Of a stretch of DNA of 6,681 bases, positions 1,098 to 2,029 are shown one piece after another. Each line of letters opens with the position of its first letter. The first letter of the stretch is position 1. The stretch is taken from assembly GCA_009916335.1 (NCBI GenBank), contig SAAR01000189.1:1-6681 (forward strand), given 5' to 3'. The notes beneath the pieces are model-generated. The model had not been told where the DNA came from. It searched no databases and saw nothing but the letters and a program-made list of their open reading frames with translations. The position numbers and the translations under genes were made by a program. Source of the DNA: Erysipelotrichia bacterium. Its GTDB lineage: Bacteria; Bacillota_I; Bacilli_A; Erysipelotrichales; Erysipelotrichaceae.

Positions 1098-1184
1098 ATG
1101 GTTCATTGCAGTAATTACCCTGACTGGGTAATTGAGAGAGGGTTAGAAAATGAGGAGTGGGTTCATGACCGATGGGATGATTAA
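1098..1184 (+). CDS. 28-aa small ORF, first of the small-protein cluster
   Basis: An AAGGAGA box lies five bases before ATG 1098, one of the best initiation regions in the window, and a TAA closes the frame after 28 codons. The peptide is acidic and tryptophan-rich, running from MVHCSNYPDWVIERG to an EEWVHDRWDD tail. I know no family for it. The frame is open further upstream to 876, but that part runs antisense to the minus-strand gene and is a shadow. An 8-bp hairpin (1113-1133) is embedded in its codons, and its 3' end overlaps another short ORF. It may be a functional small protein or a leader peptide controlling the genes behind it. Confidence 0.6.
   Translation: MVHCSNYPDWVIERGLENEEWVHDRWDD
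1113..1133 (+). promoter_or_regulatory. perfect hairpin inside the 28-aa ORF
   Basis: AATTACCC (1113-1120), loop TGACT, and GGGTAATT (1126-1133) form an uninterrupted 8-bp stem with a 5-base loop within codons 6-12 of the small ORF. There is no U-tract, so it is not a terminator. Its position shortly after a strong start codon is compatible with a translational or attenuation control element, though coding constraint or chance are alternatives. Confidence 0.4.
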
Positions 1185-1278
1185 ATCTTTTGGGCTCATA
1201 GTAGAAGAAAACGTTTTGATAAAGGAGATTGAAAAAGATAATGTTTATTCAAATTCCTTCAAAAGATATTTTTTATAG
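1165..1278 (+). CDS. possible 37-aa ORF bridging two overlapping genes
   Basis: ATG 1165 is preceded by GAGGAG eight bases upstream and opens a 37-codon frame ending TAG at 1276-1278. It overlaps the last 20 bases of the 28-aa ORF in another frame and the first 38 bases of the gene starting at 1241. It contains a plausible amphipathic stretch (GLIVEENVLIKEIEK). A second ATG at 1177 would shorten it. It has a good initiation site but no recognised family, and length alone is not evidence, so this is a tentative call. Confidence 0.25.
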   Translation: MTDGMIKSFGLIVEENVLIKEIEKDNVYSNSFKRYFL

Positions 1279-1699
1279 TGACAACGGCGGTCTTGCAATT
1301 TGCTGTATTGATGAACCGTTTTATTTAAATCTAAATTCATTAATACAAATTCAATTTCAAGCGTGCATCATTCACAAGGTGTTTGCCAATCATAGTGTTA
1401 GATTAGAACATCTAATCAAATTCTATATATTGGCAGATGATGGTATTTGGAATTTTATGACTTTGTACTTTACAAAAAGTAGTCATGAAGAGTTTCAAAA
1501 CATTCAAAACATATTACAAAATCAAGGAAAAACAATGTCAAAAAATAGTTCAAAATCAACTCAGGCTAACAACAATCACCATGCAAATCAGCTAAATGGT
1601 AATAAAGGCACCAACGGTACCAATAAAGCGTATGACGCTGTTCAAGGTAATCGTGGAGCTCAGTTAAATCCCAAAAGCCCTAATTACAAAGGAAAGTAA
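1241..1699 (+). CDS. 152-aa hypothetical protein with Asn/Gly-rich tail
   Basis: The protein has two unlike halves. Residues 1-98 alternate short hydrophobic strands (GGLAICCI, QIQFQACIIHKVF, LIKFYILADD, NFMTLYFTK) and end in an amphipathic helix (HEEFQNIQNILQNQ), the strand-rich order with a final helix expected of a PH-like fold; that fold call is inference. From residue 99 the sequence becomes polar low-complexity, rich in Asn, Gly, Lys and Ser. A strong internal start at 1535 begins exactly there. The start used is ATG 1241, with AAAGGAGA 12-13 bases upstream; TTG 1229 is too close to that box. The stop overlaps the ATG of the HicA-like gene by one base (TAATG), so translation is probably coupled. 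The function is unknown. Confidence 0.65.
   Translation: MFIQIPSKDIFYSDNGGLAICCIDEPFYLNLNSLIQIQFQACIIHKVFANHSVRLEHLIKFYILADDGIWNFMTLYFTKSSHEEFQNIQNILQNQGKTMSKNSSKSTQANNNHHANQLNGNKGTNGTNKAYDAVQGNRGAQLNPKSPNYKGK
1535..1699 (+). CDS. 54-aa Asn/Gly-rich peptide from an internal in-frame start
   Basis: An AAGGA box (1524-1528) sits six bases before ATG 1535, in frame with the larger gene. The resulting 54-aa peptide is polar and low in hydrophobic residues: an NNNHH stretch, then GNKGTNGTNKAYDAVQGNRG, then QLNPKSPNYKGK. The spaced G-T-N-x-x-Y-D-x-x-x-G-N-R-G pattern looks like a conserved family of tiny proteins rather than random tail sequence, and I have an impression of similar short proteins elsewhere but cannot name them. 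The initiation region closely resembles those at 1098 and 1949. It may be the real conserved gene, with the upstream half an independent protein that lost its stop codon, or both products may be made. Confidence 0.5.
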   Translation: MSKNSSKSTQANNNHHANQLNGNKGTNGTNKAYDAVQGNRGAQLNPKSPNYKGK

Positions 1700-1932
1700 T
1701 GGCACTTCTTCATAATGTAACAGGCAATTGCTTGATACGGTTCATTCAATCGCTTGGATATAGTTGTGAAAGGCAAAATGGTAGTCATAAAATATTCACA
1801 CATCAGCAAGCTAAAACCATCACTATCCCTGTTTATAAAAAGAAGATTGTAAAAACAGGATTGTTGTGTGGGATACTTAAAGATATTGGTATTTCAAAGA
1901 CAGACTTTATTCAAGCAATTAAAACTCATTAA
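1699..1932 (+). CDS. HicA-like mRNA interferase fold protein
   Basis: This 77-aa protein matches HicA (YcfA-type) toxins in length and order of motifs: an N-terminal helix with LIRFIQSLGY, then RQNGSHKIF at residues 25-33 holding the catalytic-type histidine H30, then the strand TITIPVYK at 40-47, and the final helix GILKDIGISKTDFIQAI. HicA toxins are dsRNA-binding-fold RNases that cleave mRNA and are normally neutralised by a HicB partner. No HicB-like ORF is next to this gene; the neighbours are an Asn/Gly-rich peptide and a 26-aa peptide. The usual 'SGKE' opening is TGNC here. It starts one base inside the previous stop (TAATG) with AAAGGAAAG upstream. The toxin fold is fairly secure; toxicity or an alternative RNA-binding role in a different system is open. 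Confidence 0.8.
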   Translation: MALLHNVTGNCLIRFIQSLGYSCERQNGSHKIFTHQQAKTITIPVYKKKIVKTGLLCGILKDIGISKTDFIQAIKTH

Positions 1933-1948
1933 CAAAAAGGAAAATACA

Positions 1949-2029
1949 ATGGCTGGATTAATTAATGCACCAAGTAAAACAGGCAGTAAATCAGGTGGAG
2001 GCAGAGAGAATAACCCTCCGAAGAAGTAA
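1949..2029 (+). CDS. 26-aa Gly/Pro/Lys-rich small peptide
   Basis: An AAAAAGGAAAA region ends a few bases before ATG 1949, and a frame of 26 codons ends in TAA at 2027-2029, followed by the hairpin at 2041. The peptide opens MAGLINAPSKTG and carries SGGGRENNPPKK at its end, a positively charged, disordered composition like that of the 54-aa peptide on the other side of the HicA-like gene. It lies only 16 bases after the HicA-like stop. The strong start and operon position support expression; I know no function. It could be a small partner of the HicA-like protein. Confidence 0.55.
   Translation: MAGLINAPSKTGSKSGGGRENNPPKK

Follow-up and report, generated by a model that had tools for sequence, protein, structure and literature searches.

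A HicA gene without a recognised HicB in a compact unit of conserved micro-protein genes

The DNA discussed here is a window of 6,681 nucleotides from Erysipelotrichia bacterium (assembly GCA_009916335.1, contig SAAR01000189.1, positions 1 to 6,681 of the forward strand). It carries a gene for a HicA-family protein among several very short genes. An initial annotation had described a cassette of small open reading frames (ORFs) in this window, here called W, N, hicA and GP, each with a strong ribosome binding site and with no HicB among them, and had suggested that the peptides around HicA could be its partners in an undescribed unit. The four ORFs do lie where they had been placed (Table 1), and an AAGGA/AGGAG-type ribosome binding site precedes the ATG of each. 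Between 1080 and 2035, five ATG-initiated ORFs of at least 24 codons are preceded by a Shine-Dalgarno sequence, against a mean of 0.11 in dinucleotide shuffles, none of which reached five in 1000; the five are W, N, GP, HicA and one overlapping 37-codon ORF that has no support.

The gene unit and its conservation

The unit is real, and it is bigger than first noted. The small ORFs of the original layout are genuine, but the supposed gap between W and N contains a conserved gene for a protein of about 95 aa (U), and two further genes, E and Z, had been overlooked. U, E and Z belong to the unit too, and with E and Z counted as members it stretches further left than 1098. It consists of Z on the plus strand, E on the minus strand and then the run W-U-N-hicA-GP, and is compact, patchily distributed and probably mobile. 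The gene unit itself is well supported. No known-family match above cut-off was found for U, E or Z.

Table 1. Coordinates of the unit and of the other genes described in the window
Feature	Position	Strand	Description
WGR-domain protein	35-286	+	directly before Z
Z	282-692	+	zinc ribbon and one likely membrane segment
E	695-1012	-	106 aa, helical, divergent from the peptide operon
Inverted repeat	1049-1074		between E and W, stem of 9 pairs, loop 8
W	1098-1184	+	28-aa acidic Trp-rich micro-protein (coordinates include stop)
U	1241-1534	+	about 95 aa, PH-like model, frame continues into N
N	1535-1699	+	54-aa Asn/Gly-rich micro-protein, own ribosome binding site
HicA	1699-1932	+	77 aa, PF07927, GSH motif (His30)
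GP	1949-2029	+	26-aa Gly/Pro/Lys-rich micro-protein
Terminator-like hairpin	2041-2071	+	after GP, 13 pairs, -15.9 kcal/mol for 2030-2080
HTH/excisionase-like protein	2111-2452	-	
SNF2-Mrr protein	3177-6434	-	1086-aa SNF2 helicase fused to Mrr nuclease domain
Zinc-finger protein	6419-6679	-	cut by window end

Sequence comparison shows W, N, GP and HicA to be genuine genes, present again in related genomes with their protein sequence kept. Recurrence together with conservation at the protein level is the reason for treating W, N and GP as genes. In codon comparisons, the ratio of nonsynonymous to synonymous differences (pN/pS) was 0.46 for N (19 sequences), 0.39 for GP (17, including Gamma- and Betaproteobacteria), 0.47 for W (5), 0.41 for HicA (8) and 0.57 for U (3), in sequence rows chosen by eye from the loci, with pairs that are not independent and with pS near saturation in distant pairs. 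Close pairs agree (N of G035 against N of G017, pN 0.009, pS 0.431). The tiny ORFs are thus conserved as codons in related loci (pN/pS 0.39-0.47).

U has no stop within the window, and its frame runs on into N. A fusion is possible for that reason, and the window may encode U-N as a single protein of 152 aa, N by itself (54 aa), or both. Elsewhere, U and N are separate ORFs (G039 and G415), and the nine U homologues found by protein search are 90-102 aa long. The predicted structure of U is tentatively read as PH-like.

The gene upstream of hicA

The identity of the 77-aa protein as HicA, with its histidine, had been correctly recognised. It matches PF07927 at 50.3 bits (cut-off 27, E 2.6e-13) and, by profile, PDB 1whz (2.1e-4). 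A catalytic histidine in a G-S/N-H motif is a hallmark of the HicA family, and H30 of the GSH motif is invariant in 14 of 14 aligned sequences, the window counted. In characterised systems HicA domains cleave mRNA, and by family the protein is predicted to be an mRNA interferase of dsRBD fold.

The survey of relatives covered 104 genomes from the UBA4036 family, taken as Arcobacteraceae. The HicA profile matches nine of them (E up to 1e-5). In seven of the nine an N gene lies directly 5' of hicA; one copy is decayed (G064), and the six intact ones end on the hicA start codon (G001, G004, G016, G017, G035 and G039; Table 2). The window has the same arrangement, in which the N stop overlaps the hicA start by one base and the hicA ribosome binding site lies within the coding end of N. 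The upstream peptide next to hicA is 43-57 aa long and Asn/Gly-rich. In the other two HicA genomes (G053 and G054) HicB adjoins hicA. HicB overlaps hicA from the upstream side in the HicB-type relatives L102 and L103; N therefore occupies the slot of HicB.

Table 2. Gene content of related loci
Locus	Genes	HicA
Window	Z E W U N hicA GP	present
G004	Z E N hicA	present
G017	Z E N hicA GP	present
G039	Z-like (by eye) E W U N hicA	present
G001, G035	N hicA W	present
G016	N hicA GP	present
G064	(N decayed) hicA, then acidic 45-aa peptide	present
G011, G083	Z E N	no match
G415	Z W U N	no match
G093, G095	N GP	no match
G013	N beside Thg1-like gene	no match
G464	Z E W at contig end	not readable

The HicA of the window is best read as part of a HicB-less form of the HicA system. 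HicB was not detected in the window proteins scanned (two library scans of 10 proteins each). A genome-wide search with PF15919 found no HicB in any of the seven genomes with N-type hicA, decayed copy included, and was positive in both HicB-type controls. Within the proteins and genomes searched, the original remark that HicB is missing has held. As far as these checks reach, the original proposal is refuted neither by a HicB elsewhere that might pair with hicA nor by a lack of codon conservation in the tiny ORFs. A conventional hicBA module, with its HicB located elsewhere or diverged beyond recognition, could still be argued for from the use of PF15919 as the sole genome-wide model and from its application to relatives' genomes rather than the window's own. 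It is disfavoured as highly improbable, since the same search found HicB beside hicA in both HicB-type family genomes, and U, the only similar-sized neighbour of hicA on its strand, gave a PH-like model and matched no HicB in the scans.

The overlap of N with hicA also admits a reading in which translation of N acts in cis as a leader, coupled to that of hicA or attenuating it (for example by sensing Asn-tRNA supply), with no role for the peptide itself. The Asn-rich composition of N, its position directly upstream, the one-base overlap and the hicA ribosome binding site inside its end would all suit such a leader. N is, however, conserved at the protein level and also occurs without an overlapping downstream gene, and a cis role is very unlikely.

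The history of the two arrangements was read from a HicA tree of 20 rows, in which the HicA of G039 joins HicB-type HicAs (98/96) rather than the remaining N-type ones. This placement would suggest two recruitments, but without L001, a very long row, the split between N-type and HicB-type is a single branch. On that branch one exchange between N and HicB is possible, in either direction.

Distribution of the micro-proteins, E and Z

A protein search with N returned six relatives, two of which seem, from their equal sizes, to share contigs (11959 and 13108 bases) with HicA relatives. In the family survey 12 of the 104 genomes gave an N match, 11 in one all-genome search (the decayed copy in G064 counted) and one, G016, with a later profile run over fewer than all 104. 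The association of hicA with N gives a Fisher p of 1.2e-6, or 7.8e-6 without the remnant, 2.2e-5 without G016 and 2.9e-4 without both. W has relatives in G001, G035, G039, G415 and G464, each adjoining HicA, U or E, and was found in 3 of 397 Campylobacterota genomes. GP follows HicA at the same place in G016 and G017. As a group, the peptides around HicA are conserved and keep company with it, as had been suggested; they are nevertheless different sequence families, and their charge, read from sequence, differs.

The micro-proteins extend well beyond HicA. Of the 397 Campylobacterota genomes, 30 have N (E up to 1e-3), 29 have GP (E up to 0.01, with doubtful matches at the weak end) and 10 match the HicA profile, for which no more than 14 candidates per genome were scored. 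Among the candidates scored, HicA accompanies N in 5 of 30 genomes and GP in 2 of 29. The idea of the peptides as exclusive partners of HicA therefore fails, as N and GP mostly occur apart from it. GP is also found in Gamma- and Betaproteobacteria, and a plasmid search gave 38 records (E up to 10, a good part of them weak), Acinetobacter plasmids among them. Separately, two PLSDB 'plasmid' records, NZ_CP119142.1 and NZ_AP026896.1, are 2.2 and 4.9 Mb long and look like chromosomes.

Both motifs also sit within longer proteins. Vibrio plasmid proteins of 237-247 aa (L057, L110, L111) contain the N motif in their middle part, and small proteins encoded on the viral contigs L063, L065 and L067 (near 5000-5078) end C-terminally in the GP motif, with a larger gene downstream. 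GP adjoins NYN-domain genes in L071, L073 and L074 (Pfam check on L071 and L074). On a Vibrio cortegadensis plasmid (L053, 2344-2989) a small Asn-rich peptide and GP face a TIR-domain gene in convergent orientation; on a plasmid of Aliarcobacter faecis (L056, 2462-3338) a 42-aa N either abuts a Thg1-like gene (tRNA-His guanylyltransferase) or overlaps it, according to which start is taken; and on a Klebsiella plasmid (L055, 2387-2668) an N-motif ORF lies among resistance genes and qacEdelta1/sul1, in an integron-like setting. A further acidic micro-protein type (LWSDINNPNN...DDWAD..N.NN) stands beside HicA, N or GP in L008, L030 and L071. The recurrence of RNA- or nucleotide-acting enzymes beside the peptides is suggestive, in contexts that were noticed rather than sampled and with GP also beside ribosomal protein genes.

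From this breadth, the micro-proteins could be general small hydrophilic proteins of genomic islands (for example RNA- or ribosome-associated, or stress proteins), with hicA an orphan beside N and no mutual action. Their neighbours are unrelated genes (rplU-rpmA, NYN RNases, lipoproteins, Thg1, the TIR gene and the integron-like resistance array), N and GP are both parts of longer proteins, and G064 retains hicA after the decay of N. Set against this are the stop/start overlap in 6 of 6 intact family cases and the window, the failure to find a PF15919 HicB in those six genomes and the association by counting (p 1.2e-6 to 2.9e-4), which leave this explanation unlikely.

E and Z are more specific markers of the unit than the micro-proteins. 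E was found in 5 of the 104 family genomes, in all five divergent from N or from the W-U-N run; it also adjoins W in G464, and it was seen solely beside N or W. Its low-confidence AF2 model has four helices (pLDDT 74) and no confident fold match, and E weakly matches PHROG 4268, 'transcriptional repressor' (E 0.031). The zinc ribbon and membrane segment of Z were read from its sequence, and Z relatives gave sub-threshold Pfam zinc-ribbon matches only. Homologues of Z lie near E, peptides or both in G004, G011, G017, G083, G415, G464, G118 and Aeromonas caviae, and all strong Z matches are in peptide-bearing loci, including Sulfurimonas relatives and Aeromonas.

The inverted repeat between E and W lies downstream of a CATAAT stretch (by eye), and a promoter scan found no promoter at it; it may be an operator, a hairpin or a terminator. 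Short inverted repeats in the E/N gaps are similar in G004 and G011 and weaker or different in G017 and G083. The hairpin after GP was absent from the list of a consensus terminator scan.

The distribution of Z and E raises a close rival, in which Z, E and a peptide form the core and HicA is cargo. Z, a peptide and either E or a divergent protein resembling it occur with HicA unmatched in G011, G083 and G118, the same trio lies without HicA in the stretches read of Aeromonas caviae and an IMG/VR contig, G464 carries Z, E and W up to its contig end, and Z homology spans phyla (hhalign 98.4%; BLASTP 1e-19, Aeromonas against L066). This rival is itself rather doubtful: N-hicA or its remnant lacks a Z or E match in G001, G016, G035 and G064, E and the E-like proteins do not align convincingly (hhalign 15.7%), and the peptide types differ, N in one set and GP in the other.

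Proposed function and known systems

The explanation tentatively preferred is a HicB-less HicA unit in which N restrains HicA, E controls transcription and Z and U sense or relay a trigger. HicA would act as the effector. N is proposed as its restraint because it immediately precedes hicA on the same strand, is coupled to it by the stop/start overlap and takes the place that HicB has in neighbouring hicBA operons. E, which points away from the run across a short intergenic gap, would control transcription, and N, together with E, would be the likeliest control of HicA. Z, as a membrane zinc-ribbon protein, and U, with its PH-like model, might sense or relay the trigger, which could plausibly be phage attack given the ZorD-like SNF2-Mrr gene nearby.

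Several observations weigh against this explanation. In G064 N is frameshifted and carries stops, with only its last 28 codons still open, and hicA remains open; this excludes N as an obligate antitoxin, unless that HicA is inactive or the downstream acidic peptide replaces N. Neutralisation of HicA by the adjacent, overlapping N (6 intact of 7) thus stays a proposal against which G064 speaks. N also looks disordered by composition and resembles no antitoxin. It occurs with no HicA match in G011, G083, G093, G095 and G013, and among the candidates scored no HicA profile match accompanies N in 25 of 30 genomes or GP in 27 of 29. The HicA tree without L001 parts N-type from HicB-type at one branch (98/92), so repeated recruitment is not seen. 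The E query rows came from loci already known to carry N (G004, G011, G083 and the window), and E was not found in G001, G016, G035 or G064. Finally, the genome-wide case against HicB comes from one model. The proposed mechanism is held only tentatively because N is far from exclusive to HicA and because of the open hicA behind a dead N in G064.

A broader and quite unlikely generalisation is that Z, E and swappable disordered micro-proteins (N, GP, W and the acidic types) form an undescribed mobile control class. A micro-protein slot, rather than a folded antitoxin, would then couple to varied RNA- or nucleotide-acting enzymes (HicA here; Thg1, NYN and TIR elsewhere), and HicA would be one effector of a general defence or addiction system. 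Should N prove to control HicA, it would represent an unfamiliar type of antitoxin and show directly how small a disordered protein may be in that role. Three micro-protein families that standard gene calling often skips gain a firm genetic setting, and E and Z are searchable handles for further such units.

Other genes of the window have likenesses of their own. The WGR-domain protein matches PF05406 (25.6 bits, cut-off 22), the zinc-finger protein matches Stc1 (PF12898, 33.7 bits, cut-off 24.8), and the HTH/excisionase-like protein has a sub-threshold match to MAD1 of the methylation-associated defence system (28 bits, cut-off 80). The SNF2-Mrr protein resembles ZorD of Zorya type I, with ZorD as its best PADLOC match (580 bits). 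It differs in being merely a neighbour of the unit and in falling far under the NCBIfam ZorD cut-off (331 of 1500 bits); PADLOC gave no match in the other six window proteins scanned.

The contexts of HicA, whose RNase activity is also spoken of there, have been sorted into 14 classes, eight bicistronic with HicB, two with viperin, three HicB fusions and one with SMC (Gerdes, 2024; PMC10865869). As far as the accessible portion of that account goes, none of the 14 has a micro-protein in the place of HicB or matches the context found here. A text search, with most subscription journals and supplements outside its coverage, found no papers on orphan or solitary HicA or on the peptide motifs. The viperin-hicA Classes 9 and 10 share with the window a HicA without HicB and another partner gene adjoining hicA; their partner is a radical SAM enzyme, whereas the window hicA is flanked by N and GP, and no radical SAM match was found among the window proteins scanned, which places the window outside these classes. 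A Class 10 type pair is seen in the Campylobacterota genome L101, where viperin (683-1501; NF038283, 290 bits, cut-off 180) overlaps hicA (1498-1731) by 4 bases and no N was seen. With HicBA Class 2 (hicB upstream, small HicB) the window shares the HicA domain with its histidine, a small overlapping upstream gene and compactness, and the Class 2 order also holds in the HicB-type loci L011, L102 and L103. The window differs from Class 2 in the Asn/Gly-rich peptide upstream, in having no HicB found and in the additional Z, E, W, U and GP. The undescribed unit proposed at the outset is partly borne out, in its HicB-less context and conserved peptides, though the peptides are not exclusive to HicA and the unit is larger by U, E and Z. 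Compared with these systems the gene context is new, and a toxin family already known is probably controlled here in a new way; a wholly new class of unit is possible.
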